Part shown: positions 1-18,480 of the stretch, piece after piece
How the letters are laid out: every line of letters begins with the position of its first letter
How positions within the stretch are numbered: position 1 is the first letter of the stretch
Assembly: GCA_001247695.2 (NCBI GenBank)
Contig: LGRX02034412.1
Coordinates: forward strand, 37,418 to 101,417
Source of the DNA: Cymbomonas tetramitiformis
Lineage: Eukaryota; Chlorophyta; Pyramimonadophyceae; Pyramimonadales; Pyramimonadaceae
Reading direction: 5' to 3'
Length of the DNA: 64,000 bases
Made by a program: the position numbers and the translations under genes
The notes under the pieces: generated by a model
Databases searched by the model: none
What the model saw: only the letters and a program-made list of their open reading frames with translations
What the model was told of the DNA's origin: nothing

Positions 1-810
1 CGGCGTTCGTCCAGATATGTGTAGGTTTCATGTAGGGTGTCCCATACCTACAGTAGGAGACGGGTGAGGAGCGGGCAAACCCTTCATCACAGATCGCGTG
101 TGCAGCCCTCGCAGAGCATCTCCAGCCGGGTTCTCAATGAAGTAGTATGCTGGATCGTAGTACTCGATGATCTGCCGGGTACGCTTCACTCGCCGATCAG
201 CCAGCTCCAGGTCCGGTACTCCCCTAGTCTTGGCCTTGCTGTACTCCTTACATGGTGGGCTCGCCCAGATCACGTCGAAATAGTGTCGGGGGTACAGCCT
301 GTAGTTCCAGTGGAGAATGTCCTCGGTGCATGTTGCTTGCCACTTAGGGAGAATATCCACTGTCACCACTTCGCAGCCGTCGAACTGTCGCTGGAACTGC
401 TGGTCTACAGACCCAGTCCCACAGAAGAGGACGAGGATCCTCACAGGATGTTGCACCGTCGTGAGATGCGGCTGATAGACCTGACTGGCACCCTTACTGT
501 AAACCTTGGGGGTGGGGGCTCTCATTGTCATGAGCTGAGCCCTCTGCTCCTGCTGTTGGCTGTGCGTCTCCCTACGCCTCCTTTCTGGGGCCTTCCTCTG
601 CTTCTCCTCATCGGCCTCAAAGGCTCTCAAAGGCTCCAACCTGCCTCCCTTGCCCTCCAGGTCCTCTCGGGTCCGCCACTGGCTGTGACTGTGTGGCAAT
701 CCTTTCCACTTGGTCAACCACTCCTGCACTGACCCGCCAGTTTTTCCGCCTAACTTCCTGAAGCGTGTGCGGATGATGCGCTCCACCTCGCGCTCCTTTT
801 GCCCTTCCAC
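1..810 (-). pseudogene. Chromodomain plus C5-MTase-like domain, copy 1
   Basis: This is the 3' end of the copy 1 polyprotein. From 810 downward it encodes a chromodomain (EVERIIRTRFRKLGG, then WLTKWKG and W/RTREDLEG), a charged linker, and a C5-cytosine-methyltransferase-like domain. Visible methyltransferase motifs are LVLFCGTGS (motif I), WASPPCKEYS (motif IV, with the catalytic Cys after PP) and YYFIENPAG (motif VI). Compared with copy 2 it has lost one base near 61-64, which shifts the frame just after the LPAPHP segment. It also carries a 4-base insertion near 808-815 between tether and chromodomain. It is therefore a broken copy; the window edge removes the rest. Confidence 0.85.
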
Positions 811-1875
811 GCACCATTACTGGTGGCGGTGCCATCTCTTCCCGTCTGCTGACAAAGTGATTTGCGCCTGGCTGTACTGGGCTGAGCCTGTCTGCGGTGA
901 AGGTGTCATGTACCTTCCAGTGCACGGGCAACTCCAGTCTGTATGCTGACGGGGCTCCTCGGTCCTGCACTGGTAACTCCTGTTGCCTGTCGCTGTACAA
1001 ACATTCTACTACTCGCAGAGGTCCGTGCCGCAATTTGCGCAACTTGGGTTCCAGGCCCCTGTCACCAGGCAATGTCAAGTGTTGTCCATCCACCCACACC
1101 TGATCATTCACCTCGTATACTGCTGGAGCCGGTGCCGAGCATCAAACTGCTCCATCATACGCTGCTGAGCCATTTGCAAACCCTCTCGTGCCGCCTGCAG
1201 CTGCTGCGCGAACTGCTTGGCCAACTGATGTGCTGTACCTTGCTTGTCCGCTGCCGTGCGACCTCCCTTTCTCCTCTTTGCTCCTCCCTCCAGTGCTGCG
1301 TCCATGAAGAGGTCCAACTGGGTTGCTGGCGCATGTCCGTACACCAGCTCGAATGGTGAGAACCCTGTTACTGCTGACTTAGAGTCATTGATGGCGTACT
1401 CTACTGGAGCCACCCACAGGTCCCAGTCCTCCTGGTTCTCTGCTACATAACAACGCAGCATGCGCTCCACGGTGTGGTTACTACGCTCAGCCTGGCCATC
1501 ACTCTGCGGGTGATAAGGGGTGGTGCTGGCTACCTTTACGCCCATTAATCGCATGAACTCCTGAGTCAGAGCATCTCGAAAGCGCGGATCCCGGTCGCAC
1601 ACAATCTTCATCGGGGCCCCGTGCAGTCGCCACACTGCATCCATGAACATTCTGGTCACCACCTCCGCTGAACTATCGTTATACGCCATTGGGACCACGT
1701 GCACCATCTTACTCAGTTTACATGTAAATGTGGCGAAGGCATTCACACCTCTCTCTGTCGTGGGGAGACCCGTGACAAAGTCTATGCTCACCACTTCCCA
1801 CAAACGGCTAGGCACAGTGTGGGGCTGCAACACGCCTGCTGGGTATCCTTGGCGCGGCTGGGTTTGCTGACAGGT
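811..1875 (-). pseudogene. Ty3/gypsy integrase core and tether, copy 1
   Basis: The minus strand encodes an rve-type integrase core. IDFVTGLPTTERG carries the first Asp, IVCDRDPRF the second Asp, and HPQSDGQAERSNHTVERML the Glu. A post-integrase tether follows (NDQVWVDGQHLTLPGDRG). The frame changes near 1108 between core and tether, at the same place as in copy 2, so that lesion predates the duplication. Unlike copy 2, the stretch after HTVPSR is in frame here (LWEVVSIDF). The 5' side is cut by the LTR element that begins at 1876; the integrase resumes at 5161. Confidence 0.88.
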
Positions 1876-2118
1876 TGCTGGACTTCGGGTTTAGGCTTAG
1901 TTATTATGGGCTCTGACTAGCCCCTAGCCTGACCCTGCTTCCGTCTCGTGTCCGTGACATCCTAGCACTGTACTGTACAGTAGTACAGTACAGTAGTACA
2001 GTCATCGTTTCACTGTCTGGGTTTCCGAGAGCATAAAGCTTCGGCCAGACACAAGTTATATGATTATCAGTTTGTCTCCTAGCGAGCTTAGCCGGACAGC
2101 GTATCTGTCTTCCTCGCA
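1876..2118 (+). repeat. 5' LTR of element B
   Basis: This 243-bp LTR begins TGCTGGACTT and ends CTTCCTCGCA. It contains a perfect 12-bp inverted repeat around an AGTA loop at 1967-1994 (ACTGTACTGTAC and its complement). A possible TATA-like AGCATAAAGC lies near 2030. It matches 4918-5160 base for base by eye. Confidence 0.93.
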
Positions 2119-2133
2119 GGTTATAGGCCGCAC
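2119..2133 (+). promoter_or_regulatory. Primer-binding site, element B
   Basis: GGTTATAGGCCGCAC lies directly after the 5' LTR. It resembles, with changes, the complement of the initiator tRNA-Met anticodon half (GGTTATGGGCCCAC) that is exact in the copia element at 44163. Position and shared GGTTAT support a primer site; the tRNA identity is inferred. Confidence 0.55.
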
Positions 2134-2557
2134 CGGCTTTCCGGTGATTCTGATGATGGCACAGCGCCTTGCTGTTGCCATGTTCGGCTAAGTAGGACGT
2201 AGGAGGGGTTGAGCGCCCACTTGGGCGGTGGTGAATTACTCTTACGGTATGGCCTTTTGACTTGGCAGTGATGGCGGCACGCATTGTGCTCGCCTTCGCT
2301 GCGCAGGAGATCAGTTAGTGACGGATTATTTTTATTTTACGGAAGCATCGTCGCAGCGAGAGTTAATCTGTTTCGTGCGCCGCTGGCTCCGGCGAGGTCG
2401 TTCCACACGTGACTGATTTTGGCCGCTCTCATGGTTTCGCTTACGACCTGTGAATTTTGATCTGTCAGCTGAGACTTCTACAAACTATCTGGCCGCTGTA
2501 AGCGTTCTTCCACCATCTCCCTGTTTAGCTCAGCCTTCTCCCCTGTCTCTATCTATC

Positions 2558-4732
2558 ATGGTTACCACGACGAACAACATGACGCGGTCTCGCGTCCGTA
2601 GATTAGAAACTATTTTCGATGATGTGGGTGCGCAGCATTCTGCGACGCCACACACCCCGCAGCTGCCGGCTCCGACCACCGCAGCTGCGAGAGAAATTTT
2701 GGACAAGTGTAAGCAGCTGGCCCGTGAAAATTTCGACAGAAAGGTTGCAAAAACCGTTGCCACAAAGATTCTTGGCGACAAATCGCAGCGCTTTGCAGGG
2801 ACAGAGGCGGACGCAGTGGACATTTTTTCGCAGTTGATGCATGAGCTCCGCGCGCAGTTTGTGCTTCAGTCGACGGCGTTTGCTCCCCTGTTTGACTTGA
2901 CTGACATGGCAGTTGAGGCCAGGCATGAGGCAAATGAGTTATTGCTTTCGGCTCTGACATTTCTGGCTCGCCCTGGCTCACCTGCCCGTGACTGGCTTGA
3001 GGCCTCTGGGTCCGACGTTCCTGGGGATGGCAAGCGCGCTGCCCTTGAGGTGGTGCGCATGCTCCAGGAGCGTTCGGAACCTTTTGACTCTTTTGAGTTG
3101 CTGCTGGCGGTCCGCATCCCCAGCAGCAAAGATCCTGACCGTGGTATCCGCGACTTCAATGGCCTGTTGAGGGACGTTCAGCGTTCCCACAACTTGCCAG
3201 AGGACGCGGTGAAGCGGCAGTTTCTGAAGGCTCTCGGCGATTCGTGGCTGTACCGTGATTTGGCTAACTCTCTGGCTCGGGCTGACCAGCGGCAGGGCGT
3301 GTCTCTCCTGACTATTCAGGCTCGTGTGCGGGAGCAGTTCCGCCACGGCCTGAAAGTCTCTGACGCCCCTGTCTCTGCTCTGTCGTTCGGCGATGGCGCG
3401 TCTGACCTGGCTGCGGCGTTGTCCAGTCTGCAGAAGCAGCTGGAGCGCATGCAACAGGACATTCGTGACCTAAAGCGGCAGAGGCGGGAGGGGCCTCCGC
3501 CTGCGGGCAAGCACCTCACCCGCTCTGCTGCCAGGCATCATCGTGCTGGTGTTAAACCACTTGGCACCGCTCCTTCTGTCTCGTTTGACAAGAAGAGTGG
3601 TGCCTTCGTGCCCCACTGCCAAAATGCGGTGTGTGCCAAAAGTGGTTTGAAGCACTGGCATGCTGAATGCCCCAACGGCGGTCTTCACTCTGCACACTAT
3701 TGTAGTGCAGTTGAAGACTACGAGACTGACTGCCTGGCTGTTCGTTTCCAGCGTTTCTATGACGCGGGGGATGAGCACGCCTTCGAGTCGCTCTGCACGA
3801 TGGAGGGTCGCCCGGAGGTGTGCGAGCTGTCGGCACATTCTTTTGTGACGGCTGAGCCCACGTCTCTGCGGCACTTTCAGGATGCGGCGGCTTCCGCTCA
3901 GGATGCGGCAGCTGACGATGACGTCGTGGCTCATTTTCCTCTAGCCACATTCCACTCGGGTGCACAGGGTTCGATTCCGCCACCGCCTGCGGTTCGGGGT
4001 CCCTCTGCACTCGTGGCTGGTGGTGTGCCTACGGCTCGTGACCCGCCAGTGGCTGTCCTTGGCTCTCTCGGCTTGCCTGGTTCTGTCCCATCGCTCCAGC
4101 TTGGCGACTCTGCACCGGCTCCGCTGTTTGCTGGCATGACGATTGAGGCTTCTGACATTGGCTCTGAGGTCTCTGACAACGACCAAGGCTCTGACAATGA
4201 CTCTGACGGCGGGCAGCAAGTGGCTTTTGACTCCTTCGGCACTCTTGAGCATGACTCTGACAGGGGGGCATCGCCACTAGCAGCTCCGATGTACCGTCCA
4301 CGGGCGCCGCCGAGTTTTCTCCGGTGTGCGTTAATGTCCTCGATGCTCTGTTGTTCTCTACTGGCCAGTGCTACGGCATCTCTGGTTGCCGTGGGCGGTG
4401 GTGACAGGGGCCTGGTTGAGCCCGGAGTCACCGTCCATCGGTCTACTGGGGGTATCTTTGCTTCGGATCCGCCACTTGGCTCTCTGGACATCCGTGACTG
4501 GCCGCCTGGCGATCGAGTTCTTTCATCTCTTTCTTCAATGTTCAAACCACCATGGGAATCTGCTTGTATGAGTTCTTCAGTTGATTTACTTTCTGCTGTG
4601 GAACCGCCTTGCCCACTTGGGCCTGGTGGTGCTCAATTTCAACAAGACGGTCTGCAATTCACTTCGGGGTTACTCTGTGTGTACGTCCCAATCGCTGAAC
4701 TCAGCTCTGCTGACCAGCTTCAAAGTGGCTGA
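2558..4732 (+). CDS. Gag-like protein of element B
   Basis: The single protein of this element is about 724 residues long. The start is the first in-frame ATG, which has A at -3 and G at +4; the frame is open upstream only through non-ATG codons. The N-terminal half is helical and capsid-like. A coiled-coil-like stretch follows near residues 290-310 (LSSLQKQLERMQQDIRDL), then a Cys/His cluster (CQNAVCAKSGLKHWHAEC) resembling a zinc knuckle. The C-terminal third is acidic and Ser/Asp-rich, with a hydrophobic stretch (ALMSSMLCCSLLASATASLV) that could span a membrane. The last residues are LQSG, echoed by FQSG in the fragment at 30064-30075. No enzyme domain is seen. Function as virus-like-particle Gag is inferred. 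Confidence 0.8.
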   Translation: MVTTTNNMTRSRVRRLETIFDDVGAQHSATPHTPQLPAPTTAAAREILDKCKQLARENFDRKVAKTVATKILGDKSQRFAGTEADAVDIFSQLMHELRAQFVLQSTAFAPLFDLTDMAVEARHEANELLLSALTFLARPGSPARDWLEASGSDVPGDGKRAALEVVRMLQERSEPFDSFELLLAVRIPSSKDPDRGIRDFNGLLRDVQRSHNLPEDAVKRQFLKALGDSWLYRDLANSLARADQRQGVSLLTIQARVREQFRHGLKVSDAPVSALSFGDGASDLAAALSSLQKQLERMQQDIRDLKRQRREGPPPAGKHLTRSAARHHRAGVKPLGTAPSVSFDKKSGAFVPHCQNAVCAKSGLKHWHAECPNGGLHSAHYCSAVEDYETDCLAVRFQRFYDAGDEHAFESLCTMEGRPEVCELSAHSFVTAEPTSLRHFQDAAASAQDAAADDDVVAHFPLATFHSGAQGSIPPPPAVRGPSALVAGGVPTARDPPVAVLGSLGLPGSVPSLQLGDSAPAPLFAGMTIEASDIGSEVSDNDQGSDNDSDGGQQVAFDSFGTLEHDSDRGASPLAAPMYRPRAPPSFLRCALMSSMLCCSLLASATASLVAVGGGDRGLVEPGVTVHRSTGGIFASDPPLGSLDIRDWPPGDRVLSSLSSMFKPPWESACMSSSVDLLSAVEPPCPLGPGGAQFQQDGLQFTSGLLCVYVPIAELSSADQLQSG

Positions 4733-4917
4733 GTTCCTAGTCAATCATCCTGGCAGCTTGATTAGCTTTAGCCCAGTAGTGGGATGACCGGGTCAAGACC
4801 CCGGCACCCAGCTAGAAGTGATCGGTTTCCACCGAGTTGCACGTAGGTGTTTGTTTATTATCACGTGGCTGTATACCCTGTACCTGCCTTGCTAGGTAGT
4901 CACACCCACGGGTGGTG
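4733..4917 (+). other. 3' untranslated region and polypurine tract, element B
   Basis: This stretch runs from the gag stop to the 3' LTR. It contains a GGTTTCCACCG motif shared with the fragment near 30200, and ends in GGGTGGTG immediately before TGCTGG. The same GGTGGTG/TGCTG junction occurs in the elements at 25538 (minus strand) and 30296, so it is probably the polypurine tract of this family. Confidence 0.6.
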
Positions 4918-5160
4918 TGCTGGACTTCGGGTTTAGGCTTAGTTATTATGGGCTCTGACTAGCCCCTAGCCTGACCCTGCTTCCGTCTCGTGTCCGTGAC
5001 ATCCTAGCACTGTACTGTACAGTAGTACAGTACAGTAGTACAGTCATCGTTTCACTGTCTGGGTTTCCGAGAGCATAAAGCTTCGGCCAGACACAAGTTA
5101 TATGATTATCAGTTTGTCTCCTAGCGAGCTTAGCCGGACAGCGTATCTGTCTTCCTCGCA
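4918..5160 (+). repeat. 3' LTR of element B
   Basis: This 243-bp copy matches 1876-2118 over its whole length, with the hairpin at 5009-5036. It is followed by the CAGGT target duplication at 5161-5165. Confidence 0.93.
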
Positions 5161-5165: not shown

Positions 5166-6028
5166 TACGCAAGATAGTCTTCACCCATTCAGCTACGTCC
5201 AGGTCCATTCGCGGCCACCAGAATCGCCGTCTGACTCTGTCCAAGGTTTTGTCCCTCCCTGTGTGACCTGCTGCAGGTGCTTCGTGAGCTTCGCTCAAGA
5301 CCAGCTCTCTTAGAGGGGAGTCGGGAGCTAACACCACCTGATAGCGTCCTTCCGCCACTCTCCAGATGATGTTACTTACCAGCCGAAAGTGCTCGGTGCG
5401 GTGGTGCTGTGTGGCCAGTAATTCCTGCTTCAGGGCTGATAGGTACTCACTGCGCCTGTGTTCTGCCCGTAAGGCACGCAGAAACATTCCCGGTTCCACC
5501 ACACCTGCCCGGTCCCTGATCTTTGTTGTTGCACCCTTGAGAGTCACTGCTGGTGATGCTGAGGGTCTTTCTCTCGGAGCCGTGATCTCGTCGAAGTGCT
5601 TACGCTGTGGTTTGGCCAATACTACCAAGACGGGCCATGGGATGGGCAACTCCTGCAAGGCTGTACGGTGCCCCCTTTCTTCGCCAGGAGAGATGAACAA
5701 TCGGTTGGGCTCCCCTTGCTCGTTCACGCGGGGTACGGTCTCCACGATCTCCATCCCATATTCTCGCAGCAAGGGCCGCCAGTCCGCTTGCGGAAAGTCG
5801 GGCAACAGGAACAGCGCGGCTGTGCTCTGGGGGGCGTGCCGGGCCTCTGAAGCGTAGTGCCTTAAGATGTCTGCAATGCTCACCTTGGAATCCGAGAAAG
5901 GTGGGTTACACCACACCACGCGACCCCTCCACTGTTCCTTTAGGCAATCTGTCCAGAATGTGTCCACCTGCCGGTTTTGCCCCATGAGGTCGCAGCATGC
6001 ATCCACCTGGAACCGGCCACCCAACACT
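5166..6028 (-). pseudogene. NPPF (Dam-like) domain and integrase zinc region, copy 1
   Basis: The minus strand encodes a Dam-like N6-adenine-methyltransferase-type domain: FQVDACCDL near 5980, then VVWCNPPFSD with the NPPF catalytic-type motif, then ALFLLPDF and the RLFISPGEE end. A linker and the start of the integrase zinc-binding region follow (GHTGRDKTLDRVRRRFWWPRM). The sequence then runs into the inserted LTR element, so the reading ends in element sequence. It is nearly identical to 8662-9520 on the plus strand. The open frame runs on past 6028 into low-complexity sequence, which I take to be junction rather than gene. Confidence 0.85.
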
Positions 6029-8542
6029 GCTGCTGCTGCTGCTTGGAGACATTCGGGCAAGACACCTTTGGAAGCAGCTGCTGCCTTGTCAAGGACCTCC
6101 TCCTCTTCATCATCGGAGTGTGACGTCGCCAGCCTGAGGGGGGGGGAGGAGACCTCATGCGAGGAATACGGGGACAACGATGGCACGGAAGCAAGCATGG
6201 CAACTCTGGCTTCGGACACTAGCTCCTCAGACTCGGAGGATCTCGTCGCGGACGACGCAGCTCAGGAGCTAGTGTGCGCGGTGCGCCCGGTAACGTGCCC
6301 CACTTCTGCCACTCTGGCAGTGCTGGACTGGGGACCAAACCCCGTACGAGCTCGATGGGAGGCTTTTCAGATGTTGCCCCGAGAGCGCAGGGAAAACGCT
6401 GCGCACGATCACGCAGAAGGGTTGGAGCCTGATTGGGAGAGTGAGGCTCACCAACTGTGGAGGACAGCACAGGCGCTGCGGGAGCATAGCGGTGCTCCAT
6501 CGAGAAGAAAAGGGCGTAGACGACGCGCGCCGGCAACTGCGGCTCCAGTGGTGACGGCGGCTGAGCAGGTGCGGAGCGGTGGTGAGGACAACGAGGCCGA
6601 GCAGCGGAGCCGTGGTGAGGACAATGAGGCCGAGCAGCGGGGCAGCGGTGAAGCCAAGCTCAAGCAGACCCCAACTCAGTCAACCCCTCCTGACGAGGAA
6701 GACGCTGAGGAAGTCCCACAATGGATATGGGACGAGCTGGCGGAGCTGAAGAAGGCATATGTGGACGTGGTGGGCATGGAGCTTCCCAAGGGCGTCGTGG
6801 ACCGCGACCACAAATCGCCGCTGCGCGTGGACCCCGAGTACCGTGATGGCGCACGACACAAGAGGTGCTACAAGCTGTCCATGGAGGAGTTGCGACAACT
6901 TCGTGGACAACTGGACGAGCTTCTGGCAAAAGGGTGCATCCGCCCTTCTTCCTCGCCATGGGGCAGTCCGGTGTTGATGGTGCCCAAGCCTTCGAACCCA
7001 AAGGAACTAAGGCTGATGATTGACTACAGACAGATCAACGAGATCATTGTTAAGGACCGTTACCCCTTACCGGACGTACAGTCTCTCATTGATGACCTGC
7101 AGAGAGCGACCATCTTCTCCACCGCGGACGCTCTGTGGGGATTCTGGCAGGTGCCCATGGAGGAGGACGCAATCGAGAAGACGGCGATGACCACGCCGTT
7201 TGGAGCATATGAGTGGTTGGTCATGCCAATGGGGCTGTCCAATAGTCCTTCGTGTTGGCAACGGATGATGCAGAAGTACTTGGGCCATCTACCGTTCGTC
7301 AGAGTTTTTGTGGATGACATTATGATCTTCTCGCGCAACCCCGAGGAGCACCTAGACCACCTGCGGCAGGTTTTGGAGGTATGTCGACAGAATAAGGTCA
7401 AGCTGAAGGAGTCCAAGCTACGATGCTTTAAACGCTCCGTACGTTTCCTGGGACATGGCATTGACCGCTCTGGCTGCCGACCACAGCAAGACAAGATAGC
7501 AACCATACGGGACTGGCCGCGACTGGAAACGGTGAAGCACGTGCGACAGTTCTTGGGTTTGGCTGGGTTTTATCGACGGTACATACAGGGTTTTGCTGAC
7601 TTGGCGCACCCCTTGACCAAGCTAACCAAGAACCTAGTGCCATGGGAATGGGGACCGGAGCAGGAACACGCCTTTGCACGCCTCAAGACCGCTCTCACCA
7701 CTGCACCGACCTTGATCTTGCCCGATCAGGAAGCAGCTCATCGCGGTACCAGCCCCTTTGTTGTGCAGACCGATGCGAGTGCAGTGGCATTAGCTGGCGT
7801 GCTGATGCAGGATCTAGGCAAGGGCCTGCAACCCATAGCCTTCGAGAGTAAGCAATTCTCTTCAGCCGAGCAGAACTACCACGCGGGTGAGCGAGAGCTG
7901 GCTGCGATTCACCACTGCACCACACAGACGTGGAGACACTACTTGATCTTCACGGAGTTTAGGTTGATGGGGGACCATGCTCCACTGAAGTGGTTGTTTG
8001 CACCTGGACGTGAGCTCAGCCGACGCCAGGCCAGGTGGTATGAAGATCTGGTGGAAGTAGGAGTGCACGCAATGGAGCACGTGCCAGGACGCACACTAGT
8101 GGTGCCAGACGCTGCCTCACGGCGACCGGACTATGTGCAAGCGACGGCGCGAGAAGGGCTTAAGGAAGCTGGGTATGTGGACCCGAACACCGACCAGCCG
8201 GTATCTGCACAGGAGGGCAGAAGAGCCGCGGGAGCTAAAGGGAAACCAGAAGAAGAGGAGAACGTGGTGGCTGGCCTGAAGAAGGTTGTAGAGGAGGAGG
8301 ATCCCACTTCACCCTTGGACTTGGAGCTCAGCTCGTCGGATGAGGAGGAAGATGAGTACCCACCGGTCAGTGAGCCCAAAGTAACCGGTAAGCTAACTCA
8401 GCTGAACGGCCTCTGGTGGGCGGAAACACCGGACTTGTGGTTGGACGCTATGGTCACAGTGGAAAGGATGGCTGCGCTACCAACAATGGCGGGAGTCCAG
8501 ACACGAGCCCAGAATGAGCAGCGGCCAGCAGAGAAGCAGTAG
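6029..8542 (+). CDS. Gypsy reverse transcriptase and RNase H, 5'-truncated
   Basis: The frame opens in acidic low-complexity sequence; the first in-genuine-sequence ATG is at 6197. RT motifs are clear: LRLMIDYRQIN, FSTADALWGFWQVPM, MPMGLSNSPSCWQRMM and the catalytic VFVDDIMIF, an FVDD variant of YxDD. The thumb includes FLGHGI and FLGLAGFYRRYI. RNase H shows FVVQTDASAVALAGVL, AGERELAAIHHC and LMGDHAPLKWLF, giving the D-E-D set. A charged tail ends at a TAG (8540-8542), after which the same frame continues straight into the NPPF domain. The 5' part of the polyprotein (Gag, protease) is absent. Confidence 0.93.
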   Translation, partial: AAAAAWRHSGKTPLEAAAALSRTSSSSSSECDVASLRGGEETSCEEYGDNDGTEASMATLASDTSSSDSEDLVADDAAQELVCAVRPVTCPTSATLAVLDWGPNPVRARWEAFQMLPRERRENAAHDHAEGLEPDWESEAHQLWRTAQALREHSGAPSRRKGRRRRAPATAAPVVTAAEQVRSGGEDNEAEQRSRGEDNEAEQRGSGEAKLKQTPTQSTPPDEEDAEEVPQWIWDELAELKKAYVDVVGMELPKGVVDRDHKSPLRVDPEYRDGARHKRCYKLSMEELRQLRGQLDELLAKGCIRPSSSPWGSPVLMVPKPSNPKELRLMIDYRQINEIIVKDRYPLPDVQSLIDDLQRATIFSTADALWGFWQVPMEEDAIEKTAMTTPFGAYEWLVMPMGLSNSPSCWQRMMQKYLGHLPFVRVFVDDIMIFSRNPEEHLDHLRQVLEVCRQNKVKLKESKLRCFKRSVRFLGHGIDRSGCRPQQDKIATIRDWPRLETVKHVRQFLGLAGFYRRYIQGFADLAHPLTKLTKNLVPWEWGPEQEHAFARLKTALTTAPTLILPDQEAAHRGTSPFVVQTDASAVALAGVLMQDLGKGLQPIAFESKQFSSAEQNYHAGERELAAIHHCTTQTWRHYLIFTEFRLMGDHAPLKWLFAPGRELSRRQARWYEDLVEVGVHAMEHVPGRTLVVPDAASRRPDYVQATAREGLKEAGYVDPNTDQPVSAQEGRRAAGAKGKPEEEENVVAGLKKVVEEEDPTSPLDLELSSSDEEEDEYPPVSEPKVTGKLTQLNGLWWAETPDLWLDAMVTVERMAALPTMAGVQTRAQNEQRPAEKQ

Positions 8543-9607
8543 CCAGCAGCGGTGCAGCAGCAGTCCACACCAAGGATGCAACCTGGGGAACCCCTGGTGG
8601 ACAATCAGGACTGGAAGCTAATTCCGTCCGAGTTCCGTCGACTACAAGCCAAGTATGCGAAAGTGTTGGGTGGCCGGTTCCAGGTGGATGCATGCTGCGA
8701 CCTCATGGGGCAAAACCGGCAGGTGGACACATTCTGGACAGATTGCCTAAAGGAACAGTGGAGGGGTCGCGTGGTGTGGTGTAACCCACCTTTCTCGGAT
8801 TCCAAGGTGAGCATTGCAGACATCTTAAGGCACTACGCTTCAGAGGCCCGGCACGCCCCCCAGAGCACAGCCGCGCTGTTCCTGTTGCCCGACTTTCCGC
8901 AAGCGGACTGGCGGCCCTTGCTGCGAGAATATGGGATGGAGATCGTGGAGACCATACCCCGCGTGAACGAGCAAGGGGAGCCCAACCGATTGTTCATCTC
9001 TCCTGGCGAAGAAAGGGGGCACCGTACAGCCTTGCAGGAGTTGCCCATCCCATGGCCCGTCTTGGTAGTATTGGCCAAACCACAGCGTAAGCACTTCGAC
9101 GAGATCACGGCTCCGAGAGAAAGACCCTCAGCATCACCAGCAGTGACTCTCAAGGGTGCAACAACAAAGATCAGGGACCGGGCAGGTGTGGTGGAACCGG
9201 GAATGTTTCTGCGTGCCTTACGGGCAGAACACAGGCGCAGTGAGTACCTATCAGCCCTGAAGCAGGAATTACTGGCCACACAGCACCACCGCACCGAGCA
9301 CTTTCGGCTGGTAAGTAACATCATCTGGAGAGTGGCGGAAGGACGCTATCAGGTGGTGTTAGCTCCCGACTCCCCTCTGAGAGAGCTGGTCTTGAGGGAA
9401 GCTCACGAAGCACCTGCAGCAGGTCACACAGGGAGGGACAAAACCTTGGACAGAGTCAGACGGCGATTCTGGTGGCCGCGAATGGACCTGGACGTAGCTG
9501 AATGGGTGAAGACTTGCGTAACCTGTCAGCAAACCCAGCCGCGCCAAGGATACCCAGCAGGCTTGTTGCAGCCCCACACTGTGCCTAGCCGTTGTGGGAA
9601 GTGGTGA
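8543..9607 (+). CDS. NPPF (Dam-like MTase) domain and integrase N-terminus
   Basis: This continues the RT frame after a single TAG. A Dam-like domain occupies about 8662-9000: GRFQVDACCDLMGQN, TFWTDCLKEQWRG, VVWCNPPFSDSK with NPPF at 8783-8794, ALFLLPDFPQADW and NRLFISPGEE. This order resembles the phage-type N6-adenine methyltransferase family (DPPY/NPPF catalytic motif). It may act on element or host DNA, or be a structural relic; activity is not shown. After a linker comes the integrase HHCC zinc region (GHTGRDKTLDRVRRRFWW, then CVTCQQTQPRQG). A one-base loss near 9593, relative to copy 1, shifts the frame and ends this part at 9607. Confidence 0.88.
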   Translation, partial: PAAVQQQSTPRMQPGEPLVDNQDWKLIPSEFRRLQAKYAKVLGGRFQVDACCDLMGQNRQVDTFWTDCLKEQWRGRVVWCNPPFSDSKVSIADILRHYASEARHAPQSTAALFLLPDFPQADWRPLLREYGMEIVETIPRVNEQGEPNRLFISPGEERGHRTALQELPIPWPVLVVLAKPQRKHFDEITAPRERPSASPAVTLKGATTKIRDRAGVVEPGMFLRALRAEHRRSEYLSALKQELLATQHHRTEHFRLVSNIIWRVAEGRYQVVLAPDSPLRELVLREAHEAPAAGHTGRDKTLDRVRRRFWWPRMDLDVAEWVKTCVTCQQTQPRQGYPAGLLQPHTVPSRCGKW

Positions 9608-10287
9608 GCATAGACTTTGTCACTGGTCTCCCCACGACAGAGAGAGGTGTGAATGCCTTCGCCACATTTACATGTAAACTGAGTAAGATGGTGCACGTGG
9701 TCCCAATGGCGTATAACGATAGTTCAGCGGAGGTGGTGACCAGAATGTTCATGGATGCAGTGTGGCGACTGCACGGGGCCCCGATGAAGATTGTGTGCGA
9801 CCGGGATCCGCGCTTTCGAGATGCTCTGACTCAGGAGTTCATGCGATTAATGGGCGTAAAGGTAGCCAGCACCACCCCTTATCACCCGCAGAGTGATGGC
9901 CAGGCTGAGCGTAGTAACCACACCGTGGAGCGCATGCTGCGTTGTTATGTAGCAGAGAACCAGGAGGACTGGGACCTGTGGGTGGCTCCAGTAGAGTACG
10001 CCATCAATGACTCTAAGTCAGCAGTAACAGGGTTCTCACCATTCGAGCTGGTGTACGGACATGCGCCAGCAACCCAGTTGGACCTCTTCATGGACGCAGC
10101 ACTGGAGGGAGGAGCAAAGAGGAGAAAGGGAGGTCGCACGGCAGCGGACAAGCAAGGTACAGCACATCAGTTGGCCAAGCAGTTCGCGCAGCAGCTGCAG
10201 GCGGCACGAGAGGGTTTGCAAATGGCTCAGCAGCGTATGATGGAGCAGTTTGATGCTCGGCACCGGCTCCAGCAGTATACGAGGTGA
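9592..10287 (+). CDS. Gypsy integrase core (frameshifted from 5' part)
   Basis: This rve-type integrase core has VVSIDFVTGLPTTERG (D), KIVCDRDPRFRDAL (D) and HPQSDGQAERSNHTVERML (E). It also has the FSPFELVYGHAPATQLDLF segment usual for Ty3/gypsy integrases. It is in a different frame from the zinc region because of the base lost near 9593; copy 1 is in frame there. Its end at 10287 overlaps the next frame. In that next frame the text reads PAVYEVNDQVWVDGQ, so an ancestral frameshift lies just upstream. Copy 1 shares that lesion. Confidence 0.9.
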   Translation: MWEVVSIDFVTGLPTTERGVNAFATFTCKLSKMVHVVPMAYNDSSAEVVTRMFMDAVWRLHGAPMKIVCDRDPRFRDALTQEFMRLMGVKVASTTPYHPQSDGQAERSNHTVERMLRCYVAENQEDWDLWVAPVEYAINDSKSAVTGFSPFELVYGHAPATQLDLFMDAALEGGAKRRKGGRTAADKQGTAHQLAKQFAQQLQAAREGLQMAQQRMMEQFDARHRLQQYTR

Positions 10288-10654
10288 ATGATCAGGTGTG
10301 GGTGGATGGACAACACTTGACATTGCCTGGTGACAGGGGCCTGAAACCCAAGTTGCGCAAATTGCGGCACGGACCTCTGCGAGTAGTAGAATGTTTGTAC
10401 AGCGACAGGCAGCAGGAGTTACCAGTGCAGGACCGAGGAGCCCCGTCAGCATACAGACTGGAGTTGCCCGTGCACTGGAAGGTACATGACACCTTCACCG
10501 CAGACAGGCTCAGCCCAGTACAGCCAGGCGCAAATCACTTTGTCAGCAGACGGGAAGAGATGGCACCGCCACCAGTAATGGTGGAAGGGCAAAAGGAGCG
10601 CGAGGTGGAGCGCATCATCCGCACACGCTTCAGGAAGTTAGGCGGAAAAACTGG
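10284..10654 (+). pseudogene. Integrase tether and first half of chromodomain
   Basis: This frame carries the tether (NDQVWVDGQHLTLPGDRG and LRKLRHGPLRVVECL) and the first part of the chromodomain (EVERIIRTRFRKLGGKTG). The chromodomain is cut by the DNA transposon that starts at 10655; it resumes after 16343. The chromodomain would be expected to steer integration to marked chromatin, as in other chromoviruses. Confidence 0.88.
10652..10654 (+). repeat. 3-bp target duplication TGG (left)
   Basis: TGG at 10652-10654 is repeated at 16344-16346. The uninterrupted site (AAACTGGCGGGT) is present in copy 1 on the minus strand, so the duplication is confirmed by the empty site. Confidence 0.85.
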
Positions 10655-10689
10655 CCCTACAAAATAGGGATTATTCCAAAGGCTTGGAC
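10655..10689 (+). repeat. Left terminal inverted repeat
   Basis: This 35-bp terminus begins CCCTACAAAATAGGGATTAT. It pairs with 16309-16343 with mismatches at positions 13 and 26. Confidence 0.85.
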
Positions 10690-11740
10690 GGCACCATTCC
10701 GGGCGCCCGGAACCGTCCTGAAAATATTTGGTAAAATTCCAAGCCTTTGGAAACCGCCAGGAATTGCAAGGTGAAGCTTTGGGTTTTTCCCTAGGAGTCC
10801 TATGGGGTTCCAAGCCGATGTTCCTACGGGGTTCCAAGGGGCTGGACCGAAATTTGTTAGTCCAATGGGTCCTGGTCGATTCCAAGCCGTTGGACCTATG
10901 TCTTCGGATTACGTATGACCGAAGTCGTCGGTCCAAGGCGGTTCCAACGGTTTGGAATTCATTTTGGACAATTCCAAGCCTTTGGAACTTTCCAGTCTGA
11001 GGTCGGCAGTCTGAAATCGGAGGTTCAACGGCTTGGAACCCCATTGGACCGGTCTCCGCGCAGCACGGGCGTGGTTTCAAAAGATTCCAAGCCTTTGGAA
11101 CTTGCTAGTACGAGTAATGAAGCTCGAACCCGGAGGCTCAACGGCTTGGAACCCCATTGGACCGGTCTCAGCGCAGCACGTGCGAGGGTTTCAAAAGATT
11201 CCAAGCCCTTGGACCTTGTTAGTACGAGGAATGAAGCTCAAACCCGGAGGCTCAACGGCTTGGAACCCCATAGGATCGGTCTCTGCGCAGCACGGGCGTG
11301 GGTTTCAAAAGATTCCAAGCCCTTGGACCTTGTTAGTACGAGGAATGAAGCTCGAGCCCGGAGGCTCCACGGCTTGGAACCCCATAGGACCGGTCTCTGC
11401 GCAGCACGAGCGCGGGTTTCAAAAGATTCCAAGCCCTTGGAACCCCATAGGCCCAGTCTCTGGGCAACACGGGAGCGTGTTCCGAAATTCCAAGCCCTTG
11501 GAACTTCCCGATCTGAGAGCGGAACGCTATGAGCAAGTGCTTGATATATAGACTGATAATTCTCTGGACCGATCATTCTTGCTACGTGCAGTTCAAGACC
11601 GTCCAAGCCTTTGGAACGATTATGGAAGTGATATCTTATGGTGTCCAGGCTTAGTCCAATGGTTTGGAACCGCTTCGGAACTTGCGTTTGACGGATTCCA
11701 AGGCGCATCCAAGCCTTCGGAACCCCTTTGGAACTCCAGG
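10672..11740. repeat. Left subterminal palindromic repeats
   Basis: This block holds dozens of copies, in both orientations, of a short partly palindromic motif close to TTCCAAGCCCTTGGAA. Within it, about four units of roughly 123 bp (11030-11450) repeat with the marker CAACGGCTTGGAACCCCAT. In EnSpm/CACTA elements such subterminal motifs bind the transposase; that role is inferred here. Long open frames across the block are low-complexity artefacts. Confidence 0.8.
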
Positions 11741-12367
11741 TAAGTTAGTATTATCTGTACAATGCGTGTTATATATTACAGTATATTTACAACTGGTAGG
11801 TTCTGACTTGGCAGCACGTGGTGCTCAACGAGACCGATACACTAAGTGAAGTGACTTGGAAGCTGTTAAATTGGATCCAAGGCGCCCGTAGTCCCGGGTC
11901 CACTGTTGACCTTGTTCTGAGCAGAGTGCTACTCCGAACGAGGCTTGCCTCAAATCCGGCGACGCGTTAAAGCGGCATGCACCATCGAAGAAAAGCAATC
12001 CCTTTCGTGGGGCTGAGTCTGGCTCGTGTCCCTGTTCGAGACAACAACCACACCAGAGCACTCTTCCTTTCAGGAGAAATGCTCCTCGAAAATCGCACCC
12101 CGGTCTCTACCGGGCCCCAATCTTGTGGAAAGGGATGGACGATTTTCGAGCCTGGCCACTTCCGGTGTGCTACTCGTGTAGAGTAACCCACCCGTCGTGG
12201 TCAGTACTCTAACCGTCCAGCATCCCCATGAGGCTTCTATGACGGACGGGCACCAGGTGGTCCGTGCAGGCAAGATAATTGGCATTAATTGCCTGTATTT
12301 GCGAAGCACTCCAATTTAAGATATGCATCCCAAAGTCCGAAACCCAGTGTTCCGAAGCTGACCCACG

Positions 12368-12620
12368 AAATCTAACGTAGAGCAAAAAAACAAATCCAAA
12401 TTCGAAATCCAGGATCCCGAAGACTGAAATCTGAAATCTAACGTAGAGCAAAATCAGCCAAATCGAAATTTCGAAAATCTAACGTAGAGCAAAAAACAAA
12501 TCCAAAATTCGAAAATCCAGCATCCCGAAGACTGAAATCTGAAAATCTAACGTAGAGCAAAATCAGCCAAATCGAAATTTCGAAATCTAACGTAGAGCAA
12601 AAAAACCAAATCCAAAATTC
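12368..12620. repeat. Tandem repeat with CTAACGTAGAGCAAAA
   Basis: Five occurrences of CTAACGTAGAGCAAAA lie in alternating longer and shorter A-rich units (AAATCCAAAATTCGAAAATC types). No coding sense is seen. Confidence 0.75.
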
Positions 12621-12809
12621 GAAAATCACTTTCCAGGTCAATTTAACGTGACCGATACATTAAGTGATGGCTCTAAAGGTGTTCCAAAGGCTTGGACGAT
12701 GCTTGGACTCTTCTTCGTGGGGGAATCCAAGGTTGTTCCAAAGGCTTGGACGGGGCTTGGATATTGTTAAACAATGGTTCCAACGGCTTGGACGGGATTT
12801 AGAACTCAC

Positions 12810-13157
12810 CGAGTCGGACGATGCATACTCAATCGGGCTGAAGAAGTTTTCACGGATCTTCCGGAGCATCCGTTCGGCATGGTCATGAAGATATGTGTCA
12901 TCCTCGTGTTCTTCCTCTTCGTCCGTCTCTGATGGTGGATCCGTCTCACCGTCATCATTCACACTTTCGGCACCGTCAAGAGAGTCGTTTTCTTCATGAT
13001 CTCGGTCATTGGAGAGGCGTGCGACGGGCGGATGTAGGATCAAATGCCGCTTAATCTGTTTTTTGGAGTAGCAAAATCGGAGTCTGCATTGATCGCATGG
13101 GCATGGAGTGCCTTCCGCGTTCTCGTTTCGAGCTAGTCCACGCCTTTGCCTAGCCAT
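12810..13157 (-). pseudogene. TNP2-type transposase N-terminal exon
   Basis: The start is the ATG at 13157 (MARQRRGLARN). Residues about 17-45 read TPCPCDQCRLRFCYSKKQ then IKRHLILHP. This is a Cys/His motif like the transposase-associated N-terminal domain of TNP2/En-Spm transposases. An acidic stretch follows (TDEEEEHEDDTYLHDHAE). A strong donor, TCG/GTGAGT, ends the exon at 12810; beyond it the frame falls into palindromic repeat sequence. The catalytic body of the transposase was not found, so this looks like the remnant of a deleted gene. Confidence 0.55.
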
Positions 13158-13411
13158 TATTCCTGCGAATCCATGTAAGAAGTGTGAGTTGTCTGACCGG
13201 ACTTGTAAGGTTTTCAGATGCATTCCGGGCGCCCGGACCCATGGTCCGGCGCGTGGGAACGTAGTTCCGGGCGGTCGGAATTAAATACCTTCAACATTCG
13301 GCAAAAGTCCGGTTTGTCACCTTTACATCAGGGTTTCTACGTTTTTAGGCACAATCCGGGCGCCCGGACAGGCCAGGGATTACGGTGTCCATCGGTTTGG
13401 AAAAGCCATCT

Positions 13412-13755
13412 TAAAAATCGACTAGGTCCACTTCTGGGGATTAATCCAGAGGCTTGGAAGTCCATTGGAACTGGACATTTGCTCCCACTTGAAAAATTCC
13501 ATGCCTCTGGAATTCCAAAGTGAAGCATTGGAATCGCACAAAGTTTTTTAGAACGTTTTGAGGATTGCAAAAATCACCTAAGGACCAATATTCCAACGGG
13601 TTGGCCCACTCAAACCAATGGCATGGAACTTTTTTGGTAAAAATCGACTAGGTCCACTTCTGGGGGTTTATCCAAGCCCTTGGAAGTCCATTGGAACTGG
13701 ACATTTGCTCCCACTTGAGAAATTCCATGCCCCTGGAATTCCAAAGTGAAGCCTC
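13412..13755. repeat. Two direct copies of a ~115-bp repeat
   Basis: Copies at about 13412-13527 and 13637-13755 share AAAATCGACTAGGTCCACTT. Both also contain a CTTGGAAGTCCATTGGAACT core and the GGACATTTGCTCCCACTTGA segment. They carry the same TTCCA/TGGAA half-sites as the subterminal blocks. Confidence 0.75.
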
Positions 13756-14118
13756 TTATTTCAAAGCTTAATACTTGGCTGTTTTTTGTGTAAAAAGCCC
13801 AAAAAACAAAATTTCGGAAAATTTTCTGTTTTTTTGAAAAGTGGACATATGTTTGGCCCCGATGTTTTTGATATGCAGCGACGTGAAAAATGCAGAAAAA
13901 TTGTTTTCTACCGTCAATTGTGCACATCTTACGGGAAATTTCTAAAAATAGAGCTGCGACGAATTCTGTAGAAGGACTTGCTCCAAAAATAAAAAGCAAC
14001 AGTCCAGAAAACAGAAATATACAGTATAGCGATGGACTGCTCAGATCGAAGATTAAATTGGATTCGTCGTGCACGAATGGTTGGATCGACTGCTCAGTCT
14101 TTCGCCGTACGTAGTATA

Positions 14119-14235
14119 ATCGCGAGTAATCGCGAGTAATCGCGAGTAATCGCGAGTAATCGCGAGTAATCGCGAGTAATCGCGAGTAATCGTTAGTAAT
14201 CGCGAGTAATCGCGAGTAATCGCGAGTATCGCGAC
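14119..14235. repeat. Exact 10-bp tandem repeat CGCGAGTAAT
   Basis: About eleven head-to-tail copies of CGCGAGTAAT occur with one variant unit (CGTTAGTAAT). The period is exactly 10. Confidence 0.95.
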
Positions 14236-15384
14236 CTTTGAAGACGATGGATTTTCAAATGGCTAGACGAACGGTACTCTGTGACTGTGGACTGTGGACA
14301 CAGTGAAGACCCGACACTTTACAATACGGAACTTCATATTTCACCTCAACGCCGTCGAAGACTTGCAGTATTGTATGTCCAGGTTTGTACTGTAATTATC
14401 TATATGAGCTTAGCCGTGTCTTCTTTCTTCTCATTTTTCGCAAGATTACTTTGTGGAGATCTGCAGGAAATTCTCCGGTGACGCTCGGGTCCGGGACGTA
14501 AACGCGATTCCAGGAAGTCTGAAAGATCTCTGCGGCGGAGTTATTCAAACGGTACGGGCTCAATTCGCTGTGACACTGAGAATGCCGCAACGACAGTTCT
14601 TGAACGTACCTGCCGTTATCTAGCAGCCTTGCATGTTGCGCGCGCAGAGTTGTTTTCAGCATTTTGTTTGAAAACAGTTCAGCATCATCGTAGTAGCAAC
14701 ACCGTATCATTAATCCCACAAACCTGCACTTTTAAAAATAGCGTCAGCCCAAAATAGTACCGATGCTCGAGAATCGGCCATAACACGCCGGTATGTTTTC
14801 CACATATGCGTGTAGAACTGAGCTTTGTGTTTTACTTTTTCAGGGATTGGTACCGCCCGGGTCGAGAATTGCTCTATCGCAGGTAAGACTGTTTAAACGT
14901 TGGATCTGATTTGCGTTTCGTTGACTGAAGTTTATTATTTTACTTGCGGTTCGGCGTCTGATGAACGCTGATTTTGTTCTGTTTTACGGCATGTTCGCAG
15001 GTCGTGTTTCAAGTGCGTCGGTGCTTGCAATTAGCGGAACAGATTTCAATTTAAAAGTTTCAAACTAATTAGAGTAGTTTTAAGAGTAGTTTCGAAAGCT
15101 TGCAGCTTTCGGTAGAATCCCTGACTTGTGATAGCATTATTAGCCTGAACCTAGATCCCACGCACTTGTAACTCTGTCAAGTAATGTTATTTATCCAATG
15201 ATGATGACGTATTTGCAGCTTAGCATCGCAACCTTTAAACTTTCTGTGCACAGCATGCACACGACATCATAATGTATGTGTGCAAAGAAACATGAAAACA
15301 ATGTAGCAACAATTGCAAGTGTATTTTGGAACTGCGCAGTACCCCTTAACCCTGCATACCTGCATATTCTCACTGTAAATGTAT
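14236..15384. other. Transposon interior, no recognised gene
   Basis: A 107-codon open frame lies on the minus strand at 14396-14719, with a basic tail and no recognised motif. It could be a transposon exon upstream of the TNP2 fragment. The rest is AT-rich with no coding signal I can support. Confidence 0.4.
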
Positions 15385-16330
15385 TTGGAGCCATGGTTCC
15401 AAGTCTTTGGAACCATGTCCGTTTAAGCCTTTGGAGCCATATATGTTTAAGCCTTTTGGAAACGTTGTTCCAAATCGTTGGAAATGCGGTTCCAAGCGTT
15501 TGAAATTAATGAAATGTATGAAGCAAAATAAATGTATTTGGAACCATGGTTCCAAGCCTTTGGAACCTGTCCGTCCAAGCTTTTGGAAACATTGTTCCAA
15601 AGCTTTGGAACAATGGAACCTGGCCATGCAATTCTCGTTTAACAGATTCTAAGCCCCGTCCAAGCCCTCGGAACTCGCTTGGAACCTTAATTTAACAGCT
15701 TCCAAGCCCTTGGAATCACGTTGGAATCTCTGTTTAACTGAGTCCAAGCCCTATCCAAGCCCTTGGAACCCCCTCGGAAACTTCTTTTGACGGAGTCCAA
15801 GACCCGTCCAAGTCTTTGGAACCCCTTTGGAACCTGTTTTTTTGCAGCGTCCAAGCCCTTGGACCCTCCTCGGAATCACCGTTTGGCAGAGTCTAAGCCC
15901 CGTCCAAGCCTTTGGAACCCCATTGGAATGCCCGTTTAATAAGGTCCGAGCCCCGTCCAAGCATTTGGAACCCCCTTGGAATCGCCAATCTAAAAAAATC
16001 CTATGGGAATCCAAGCCGATGGTCCAAGCGGGTCCAACGGGGTTCCAAGCCGACGGTCCAAATGGGTCCTACGGTATTCCAAACCGACGGTCTAACGGCT
16101 TGGAAACCGATTGGAATTTTATGTAAATTCCAAGGGGGTTCCGAGGGCTTGGATAGCAAATGTCCAAGTCCAAGCCCTTGGACCGCGGCTTGGACGGGGC
16201 TTGGACCTGGACATTTGCTGTCCAAGCCCTTGGAATTCCCAGTGTTAACGCCAACGCCTCTCAAACACATACCTGTCCTACCGGGTCCTATGGGGTTCCA
16301 AGCCGACGGTCCAAGCCCTTGGAATAATCC
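15385..16330. repeat. Right subterminal palindromic repeats
   Basis: This mirrors the left block: many TCCAAGCCCTTGGAA-like motifs spaced irregularly, at intervals of tens of bases, often as GTCCAAGCCCTTGGAACCCC. The run continues into the right terminal inverted repeat. Confidence 0.8.
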
Positions 16331-16343
16331 TTATTTTGTAGGG
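16309..16343 (-). repeat. Right terminal inverted repeat
   Basis: Read on the minus strand it begins CCCTACAAAATAAGGATTAT. It pairs with 10655-10689 at 33 of 35 positions and is followed by the TGG duplication (16344-16346). Confidence 0.85.
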
Positions 16344-17379
16344 TGGCGGGTCAGTGCAGGAGTGGTTGACCAAGTGGAAAGGATTGCCACACAGTCACAG
16401 CCAGTGGCGGACCCGAGAGGACCTGGAGGGCAAGGGAGGCAGGTTGGAGCCTTTGAGAGCCTTTGAGGCCGATGAAGAGAAGCAGAGGAAGGCCCCAGAA
16501 AGGAGGCGTAGGGAGACGCACAACCAACAGCAGGAGCAGAGGGCTCAGCTCATGGCAATGAGAGCCCCCACCCCGAAGGTTTACAGTAAGGGTGCCAGTC
16601 AGGTCTATCAGCCGCATCTCACGACGGTGCAACATCCTGTGAGGATCCTCGTCCTCTTCTGTGGGACTGGGTCTGTAGACCAGCATTTCCAACGACAGTT
16701 CGACGGCTGCGAAGTGGTGACAGTGGATATTCTCCCTAAGTGGCAAGCAACATGCACCGAGGACATTCTCCACTGGAACTACAGGCTGTACCCCCGACAC
16801 TATTTCGACGTGATCTGGGCGAGCCCACCATGTAAGGAGTACAGCAAGGCCAAGACTAGGGGAGTACCGGACCTGGAGCTGGCTGATCGGCGAGTGAAGC
16901 GTACCCGGCAGATCATCGAGTACTACGATCCAGCATACTACTTCATTGAGAACCCGGCTGGAGATGCTCTGCGAGGGCTGCACACGCGATCTGTGATGAA
17001 GGGTTTGCCCGCTCCTCACCCCGTCTCCTATTGTAGGTATGGGACACCCTATATGAAACCTACACATATCTGGACGAACGCCGTGCTACCCGTACCCCTG
17101 CTGCAGTGTACCCAAGCAACACCATGTCCCGCGAGAGCTGTGCTGGGAAAGCACGAGAACACATCGCAGCAAGGAGTTTCAGCGTCCAGAACACGAGGCA
17201 TGGGGTCAGCGCAAGCAGTATACGCGATCCCCCGCACCTTGTTGCACCATCTGTTCTGTGGGCTGAAGTTGGGTAAGCGCATGAGCGAGGAAAGCGCAGC
17301 AGCAGTCATGGACCTCATCGCCACTCTGACAGCGCAGACGGACGAGATCCCGATGCAGGAACAAGATACTGGGGTCTAA
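16344..17379 (+). CDS. Chromodomain end and C5-cytosine MTase-like domain, copy 2
   Basis: This is the C-terminal part of the gypsy polyprotein after the transposon. It opens with the second half of the chromodomain (WLTKWKGLPHSHSQWRTRED). After a basic linker the MTase-like domain starts near 16642. Motif I is RILVLFCGTGSVD, VTVDI is the acidic strand end, motif IV is WASPPCKEYS (PPC at 16825-16833) and motif VI is YYFIENPAG. CRYGTPYMKPTHIWTN follows, as in phage-like single-domain enzymes of this superfamily. All core catalytic-type residues seen are present, so the domain could be active; the recognition domain is short or unusual. About 100 further residues end at the TAA. Confidence 0.87.
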
Positions 17380-17722
17380 AACCCTCAGGGCGCAAAGCAG
17401 CGCAAGACCCGCAGAGCGAGAGGAGTACCAGGGCGACAGAACCGTTTAAGCGTTGGCAGCGTAATTCGGGGACGGAGCCTCGGGAAACCTCCAGCGCGGA
17501 AGGGGACTCAGACCCAAGGACTGAGGGGCACGGGACCCAAGAACCCGAGGCTTAGAAGCCAGGGGGACTCAGACCCAAGGACTGAGGGGCACGGGACCCG
17601 AGAACCCGAGGCTTAGAAGCCAGCATCACTGTGCATGTTTGTTGATCCCCAGACAATGTAAATACAGGCGAACACTAGACGCTAGCGAGGACGTAAGCGC
17701 GCGCCTAAAAGGGGGGGAGAGT
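17380..17722 (+). other. Gypsy 3' region with 61-bp repeat and polypurine tract
   Basis: This holds two tandem copies of a 61-bp unit (17502-17623; GGGGACTCAGACCCAAGGAC) and a purine run AAAAGGGGGGGAGAG at 17707-17721. The purine run sits next to TGTGCTAG and is a convincing polypurine tract. Confidence 0.75.
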
Positions 17723-18480
17723 TGTGCTAGGGTAAGTCACGAGACAGAATGACGGCGTGTCAAAATGACGAGTGACGGGTACTATGACAGTCACCAATGA
17801 CAGGCATTTATATGACCAGATGACGAGAGTGTCTGACAGAAATGACTGACAGAAATGCCTGACCCGAAAGTGAGTTTTGAACATCTGCAACCACAGCAGA
17901 TCAGGTTGAGAGAATTGGTGGGAAACCATTCCAGAAATGGGGGGAACCATTTCATATTCAAACAGCCACACAGAACTGGAGGGAAACCAGGAGAGCCCCA
18001 GTTCTTGCCACATCATCAGATCTATGACTATTCAGCAATTCAGAGCAGAGATCATCGTATGACTGGCAGCTGCAGCCCAAGGGCTAAATGACAAGACCTG
18101 TCATAGGATATGTGAACATGAAGTGACTGAGCACTGTGACTGTCGAATTCGGATGAGATATGAGGGAATTCGAGTCGACATGTTACTACTTAAAGAGCTG
18201 AACAAGCTCTCATGTCAGTTTTTGAATTAGTTACACATTGGCACTGACCTCTGGTGTCTTGTAACTTCAAACAGTGAAAGGTCACCTAAGTTATACGAAA
18301 TATCTGACAGTATACAAAGTCTTCCGATATCAACCTATGGTCCCAGTACCATATTCCCTGTAAGTGTTACTTGCACCCTTGTGAGACTGGTTCAGTCCTC
18401 ACAACCGAACATATTCAGTCCTCGGTTGAAGTCACCGTGTAGCACTCTCGTTATAAGTCTACCCACGTGACCTGCTGACC
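17723..18480 (+). repeat. Gypsy 3' LTR (right end uncertain)
   Basis: It starts TGTGCTAGGG just after the polypurine tract. The first 150 bases are dense in TGACA/TGACG motifs, which could be regulatory. No second LTR is present for comparison, so the right end is an estimate. Confidence 0.5.

Follow-up and report, generated by a model that had tools for sequence, protein, structure and literature searches.

The stretch analysed here, a window of 64,000 nucleotides from the green alga Cymbomonas tetramitiformis (contig LGRX02034412.1, here C24315, positions 37418-101417), carries a retrotransposon of the Ty3/Gypsy chromovirus type whose pol region includes two predicted methyltransferase (MTase) domains, a Dam-like N6-adenine MTase (Dam) and a C5-cytosine MTase (C5). 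The element is ordered protease (PR), reverse transcriptase (RT), RNase H, Dam, H2C2 zinc-binding domain, integrase core, SH3-like domain, chromodomain, C5, polypurine tract and long terminal repeat (LTR), which bears out the initial annotation of a chromovirus with Dam between RNase H and integrase and C5 behind the chromodomain (Table 1). PR lies to the left of the window (L112:6350-8104) and matches the database protein P0138, which has Pfam protease domains. A gag-like open reading frame (ORF), recognised by eye from its position and a zinc-knuckle-like stretch, is located upstream of pol in a different frame (L112:4173-6584). The 5' LTR is also outside the window (C24315:21875-22563) and is 97.4% identical to the 3' LTR; a target-site duplication was not established. 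The assignment to the chromoviruses follows from the order PR - RT - RNase H - integrase, from direct LTRs of the form TG...CA with a polypurine tract, and from a chromodomain C-terminal to the integrase that is detected by the Pfam Chromo profile in the window (E 2.1e-4, below the cut-off) and in a distant relative, L111 (1e-5, above the cut-off). No tyrosine recombinase was matched in the five window ORFs scanned with Pfam, in which rve and H2C2 are present instead, and membership of the DIRS elements was rejected because the integrase is of the rve type. The closest named proteins to the domains of the element are from C. tetramitiformis itself (94-97% identity; taxid 36881, Pyramimonadophyceae), and distant matches comprise one Prorocentrum protein (P0035) and two proteins labelled Tetstr1 (P0036, P0111), a label that we take to mean Tetraselmis. 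A dinoflagellate host was rejected in view of these matches.

The Dam-like domain of the window matches PF05869 with an E value of 2.1e-6 and 27.9 bits, 0.2 bits below the curated cut-off of 28.1, and the same profile matches 16 of 18 aligned Dam relatives at E≤1e-3. NPP[FY]-type sequences are the catalytic motif of the Dam family, and NPPF is kept in each of 29 genomic Dam matches. Twenty-seven loci in viral contigs were confirmed by tblastn among 129 pattern matches, and a phage Dam model was found in BFVD for the Dam model; a tblastn comparison with phage records gave no match, and a search of PDB sequences returned nothing better than E 0.56. Note that the layout differs in P0185, P0207 and P0208, environmental Gypsy-like pol proteins in which the Dam-like domain is located close to the N-terminus.

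For the C5 domain, the PF00145 match is weak in the window (E 0.0039, 17.1 bits, cut-off 22), and 45 of 61 aligned C5 relatives are matched at E≤1e-3. The predicted fold is present together with motifs I, IV (PC) and VI (EN), the signature of C5-cytosine MTases, and both SPPC and ENP are kept in 30 of 30 genomic C5 loci. Fold comparison gave Z scores of 16.1 to DNMT3A and 14.3 to HhaI, and the sequence neighbours are small free-standing and phage enzymes. Both segments noticed in the initial annotation are therefore MTase-like beyond chance, weakly when scored as single sequences and more strongly through their relatives, and structure prediction gives MTase folds for both. Since the polypurine tract and the 3' LTR come after the C5 ORF, C5 lies inside the element. 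Plant chromomethylases likewise join a chromodomain and a C5 MTase in a single protein, with the chromodomain embedded within the MTase domain. Here, in contrast, the chromodomain is that of the integrase and stands in front of the MTase (chromodomain part at residues 6-31, C5 at residues 98-305 of the ORF). A chromomethylase or host gene was ruled out, as C5 is situated within the LTRs and fused to the chromodomain of the integrase.

That the two domains belong to the same polyprotein, as initially annotated, is not true of the window copy, which is dead owing to an in-frame stop codon between RNase H and Dam, frame changes near 9590 and 10270 and an insertion of ≈5.7 kb, but it is true of other genomic copies and of L111. 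A C5 search of the own genome yielded 9,125 candidates at first look, and scores were computed for 117 of them (E≤4.1e-231, 96-100% identity); of these 117, three have a stop inside the C5 match and 11 an open frame of 2,552-2,577 aa. A 901-base piece at the expected place of Dam was then inspected in 39 copies, 28 taken in rank order (the first 29 non-window rows, one omitted since its contig ends) and 11 picked from lower ranks, eight of these with frames of at least 2,552 aa. Dam was found in 29 of the 39 (18/28 rank-order, 11/11 picked; five matches are partial or split), and in 19 it shares the frame of C5 (8/28 and 11/11). A base-by-base check of the eight rank-order copies with a shared frame found no stop across the whole span of Dam through C5 in seven; the frame of the eighth opens just inside Dam. 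Six copies were chosen for the length of their open frame (at least 2,563 aa); in all of them the frame of Dam and C5 also includes PR and RT, and gag is encoded in a different one. As a separate observation, the window's 689-bp LTR follows C5 in only four of the 30 loci L114-L143, the window's own included, so that nearly identical C5 domains have different 3' ends among copies; a 157-base LTR piece matches in 25 of the remaining loci and 74 bases in one.

L111 (NHEN01000032.1) is a 13.4-kb contig binned into a metagenome-assembled genome of Verrucomicrobiaceae, which we take for a misbinned eukaryotic retroelement and a distant marine relative of the window element. Pfam profiles identify RNase H, Dam, H2C2, integrase core, SH3 and chromodomain in a single 1,325-aa frame with an open 5' end, the scores of Dam, rve and SH3 being below the cut-offs. 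C5 follows in that frame; it has no PF00145 match at E≤0.1 and was recognised by 49% identity and by SPPC and ENP. NPPY is kept in the Dam of L111. Among 255 database proteins, five match both domains (P0160, P0004, P0102, P0166 and P0073), the last being fragmentary and with the domains in reverse order. Downstream of the pol frame of L111 and on the same strand, a further open frame of 1,382 aa (L111:1-4146, minus strand) has no Pfam match better than E 0.026; one stretch of it presumably resembles an OTU protease motif.

Low ratios of non-synonymous to synonymous substitution (Ka/Ks) were obtained by the Nei-Gojobori method with Jukes-Cantor correction between two groups of copies (L144, which has a 3-base insert, and copies with a partial or split Dam match were excluded). 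For Dam (4 copies, one of them the window, against 20), Ka/Ks is 0.04 at a Ks of 0.31, the copies not having been picked by their Dam sequence, and for C5 (14 copies including the window against 16) it is 0.07 at a Ks of 0.18, a value biased low because the C5 loci were picked by C5 protein score. At residues shared with L111, changes at four-fold sites approach saturation in Dam (18/24; residue identity 45%) and in C5 (31/45; 49%), and the corresponding values are 20/26 and 54% for RNase H and 17/23 and 56% for the integrase core. Both MTase domains are therefore constrained comparably to, though somewhat less tightly than, the replication enzymes, and both appear to be kept by selection.

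A quick, unrooted C5 tree was computed from 119 sequences, using 30 of 80 viral-contig loci and omitting segments below 140 aa, 26 near-identical rows and L111. A set of 44 rows (approximate likelihood-ratio support, SH-aLRT, 96) includes the window and all eight rows for which a Chromo domain was precomputed, and none of the viral-contig rows; by eye, remnants of a chromodomain lie in front of C5 in several subgroups of this set. A single-protein C5 query against viral contigs led to no confirmed locus. In the Dam tree (47 rows, ten partial rows and three short-match viral-contig loci omitted), 23 retroelement rows cluster (99/98) separately from 24 viral-contig rows. Neither tree contains Dnmt3 or DIRS sequences. 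In sequence, both domains are akin to phage-type enzymes.

We assume, with a probability of roughly 0.5, that this multicopy chromovirus with Dam and C5 in one pol frame would use both on its own newly made DNA, methylating it at about the time of reverse transcription and integration. As parts of Pol, both domains would presumably be synthesised with it and packaged into the particle. Dam, adjoining RNase H, would methylate adenines while the double-stranded complementary DNA (cDNA) forms, and C5, through its attachment to integrase and chromodomain, would act on cytosines at the cDNA ends and the target site. The new copy would then resemble host or heterochromatic DNA or be shielded from nucleases. 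Marking of the cDNA is probably the simplest use; with their placement, both activities would be at hand as double-stranded cDNA forms and integrates. Besides placement and conservation, we count in favour the precedent of retroelement C5 domains that are active on CG in yeast (PMC5890265) and the low observed/expected CpG ratio of the LTRs (0.42-0.44 versus 0.83 in window 20000-64000). Several observations weigh against it. Relative to other C:G transitions, those in CpG context are not raised among the copies (ratios 1.1 in Dam and 0.8 in C5), and a trinucleotide scan of the copies has no CpG peak. Ten of the 28 rank-order copies showed no Dam in their 901-base piece, one Dam match contains a stop (L158), and C18964, one of the 19 one-frame copies, has a stop inside C5; the sampling bias of the C5 Ka/Ks belongs here too. 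Conservation of the catalytic motifs, named as a test in the initial annotation, holds throughout the genomic copies examined but fails for Dam in some database relatives, namely P0146 (CSLSS), P0147 (SPPY), P0165 (TPPY), P0207 and P0208 (NAPF) and P0073. As P0146 overlaps the C5-bearing P0020, which keeps SPPC, with 98.8% identity over 164 aa and the two look like one element family, Dam may be dispensable. Methylation activity of either domain is a prediction from sequence and fold. When KnitGypsy-Dnmt3 and SymbioLINE domains were studied in yeast, no methylation resulted, an outcome called inconclusive by the authors (PMC5890265).

Other explanations have to be weighed against marking of the element's own DNA. 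The two domains might act mainly on others, by blocking or redirecting silencing in host chromatin or by modifying DNA viruses, as has been proposed for retroelement MTase domains generally. Antiviral roles of transposon methylases have been speculated upon (PMC6338049), and Cymbomonas has many endogenous giant and Polinton-like viruses (PMC10675990); fusion of both domains inside Pol would, however, tend to confine them to particles, and our analysis gave no link to viruses or host genes, so that we regard this as unlikely. We are more sceptical that either domain, or both, lacks catalytic activity and is retained for structure or nucleic-acid binding, as stated for ALOG-type DIRS elements and their adenine-methylase-like domain (Iyer and Aravind, PMC3537659). 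The altered NPP motif of several relatives would fit such a role, but the low Ka/Ks and the intact motifs of all genomic Dam matches and C5 loci examined and of L111 speak against it. It is improbable that Dam is an RNA adenosine MTase of the cap type, similar to CAPAM, that modifies the RNA of the element and leaves C5 as the only enzyme acting on DNA. The best fold match of the Dam model is indeed this mRNA-cap enzyme, a point that also counts against marking of DNA, at E 2.0e-3, with no PDB match by Foldseek at E≤0.001; the sequence kinship, in contrast, is with phage Dam, as described above, and CAPAM is absent from the PDB sequence matches up to E 1. Finally, nested insertions and an inverted partial copy do exist in the window, and the co-occurrence of Dam and C5 could be an accident of nesting or of misassembly in a repeat-rich contig. 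We consider the chance of this negligible: 19 of 39 copies have both domains in one frame, seven of eight confirmed base by base, the two occur together in the unrelated assembly of L111, and C5 sits between the chromodomain and the polypurine tract and LTR. Chance or nesting as the source of the dual domains was thus rejected on copies, L111 and element borders.

A wider scenario than cDNA marking is put forward only tentatively, and we doubt it more than we believe it. A chromovirus lineage would have taken adenine and cytosine MTases from phage-like sources and kept both through deep divergence; it would write a combined signature of N6-methyladenine and 5-methylcytosine on cDNA and insertion site, thereby spread to high copy number and contribute to the methylome of the host alga.

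Capture of C5 MTases by retrotransposons in dinoflagellates and a charophyte alga, mentioned in the initial annotation, is documented for dinoflagellates and Klebsormidium (PMC5890265). In Klebsormidium nitens, KnitGypsy-Dnmt3 (de Mendoza et al. 2018, PMC5890265) is likewise an LTR element of the Gypsy type whose Pol polyprotein includes a C5 MTase, with purifying selection reported there (Ka/Ks < 0.2). Its enzyme is, however, Dnmt3-related and no adenine MTase is mentioned in the passages cited here, whereas the C5 of the window element has phage-type neighbours, stands behind a chromodomain and is accompanied by Dam. DIRS elements with a Dam-like domain and SymbioDIRS-Dnmt3 (PMC6338049, PMC3537659, PMC5890265) also have an MTase-type domain in or beside the RT-RNase H polyprotein, but they use a tyrosine recombinase where the window element has an rve integrase and direct LTRs; the cited parts of these papers describe no DIRS element with both chemistries. 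The Chlamyvir chromoviruses (PMC3350952, PMC10675990), compared by description and not by an RT tree, are Ty3/Gypsy elements with a chromodomain in green algal hosts, and related chromodomain pol genes are mentioned in Cymbomonas (PMC10675990); MTase domains are not mentioned for them in the sections cited. Burns et al. 2015 (PMC5741210) reported Cymbomonas scaffolds of >10,000x coverage with homology to chromodomain, RNaseH and cytosine MTase, Dam not being mentioned in the portion cited. The initial claim that no element with both domains had been described agrees with the open-access literature consulted, to which subscription papers and Repbase are external, but it did not mention that Dam-like domains occur in DIRS elements. 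Elements with C5 and DIRS elements with Dam are each known, and the window element is apparently a real and so far undescribed combination within the known kind of retroelements with a captured MTase. It is an open question why an element would bear the mark by which hosts silence it, and a family that keeps both chemistries at low Ka/Ks with many open-frame copies makes this question directly testable. The combination also suggests that phage-type modification enzymes may enter eukaryotic retroelements as a pair.

Table 1 Features of the element (copy 1) and of its inverted partial copy (copy 2), in window positions (., no strand given)
Feature	Position	Strand	Evidence or remark
pol part with RT and RNase H	6059..8539 (ORF 5858-8542, element sequence from ~6059)	+	Pfam RVT_1 5.9e-33, RT_RNaseH 3.1e-27; P0138 match starts 6059
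In-frame stop codon separating RNase H and Dam ORFs, copy 1	8540..8542	+	relative P0121 without stop at same place
Dam-like N6-adenine MTase domain (DACCD, NPPF), predicted	8603..9067, in ORF 8543-9607	+	Pfam PF05869, predicted fold, conservation in copies
Integrase H2C2 zinc-binding domain, ORF shared with Dam	9368..9544	+	Pfam Integrase_H2C2 1e-23
Integrase core (rve)	9589..10287	+	Pfam PF00665 4.6e-9
Integrase SH3-like domain and N-terminal chromodomain half	10254..10667	+	Pfam PF24626 1.4e-5, 25.5 bits, cut-off 30; chromodomain continuous in copy 2
~5.7 kb insertion interrupting copy 1 chromodomain, many short repeats	10660..16343, ends approximate	.	missing from copy 2; repeats
C-terminal chromodomain half	16357..16434, in ORF 16342-17379	+	Pfam PF00385 2.1e-4 (21.6 bits, cut-off 25.1), residues 6-31
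C5-cytosine MTase domain (FCGTGS, SPPC, ENPAG, YCRYG), predicted	16633..17256, in ORF 16342-17379	+	
Polypurine tract directly 5' of 3' LTR	17707..17721	+	sequence
3' LTR, 689 bp, TG...CA	17723..18411	+	18 mismatches/689 sites to 5' LTR, no gaps
Copy 2: chromodomain and C5, contiguous	62..739	-	6 mismatches/678 to copy 1
Copy 2: integrase core, SH3 region	812..1803	-	3 mismatches/992 to copy 1
Insertion inside copy 2	1876..5160	.	243-bp direct repeats at both ends (1876-2118, 4918-5160)
Copy 2: Dam (5'-truncated) and H2C2	5176..6028	-	3 mismatches/853 to copy 1

A second, inverted partial copy occupies window 62-6028 on the minus strand and differs from copy 1 by 16 substitutions and 2 gap columns across 2,600 compared bases. 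The inverted stretch spans L112:8092 to approximately window 6058 and is placed between PR and RT of copy 1, because the P0138 match passes from L112 (through residue 302 of P0138) to the window (from residue 300 onward). A 22-base stretch identical to the polypurine tract with the first LTR bases (window 17705-17726) is found just beyond the LTR end of copy 2 (L112:8060-8125), and the inversion may have arisen via such microhomology or by self-integration. Repeat units in the insert of copy 1 are direct repeats of 113-114 bp and a tandem array with a 10-bp unit (window 10960-11441 and 14097-14248). The insertion of ≈3.3 kb in copy 2 has a plus-strand ORF of 771 aa (2417-4732), and L113:7732-9564 encodes a protein that, by eye, resembles it.

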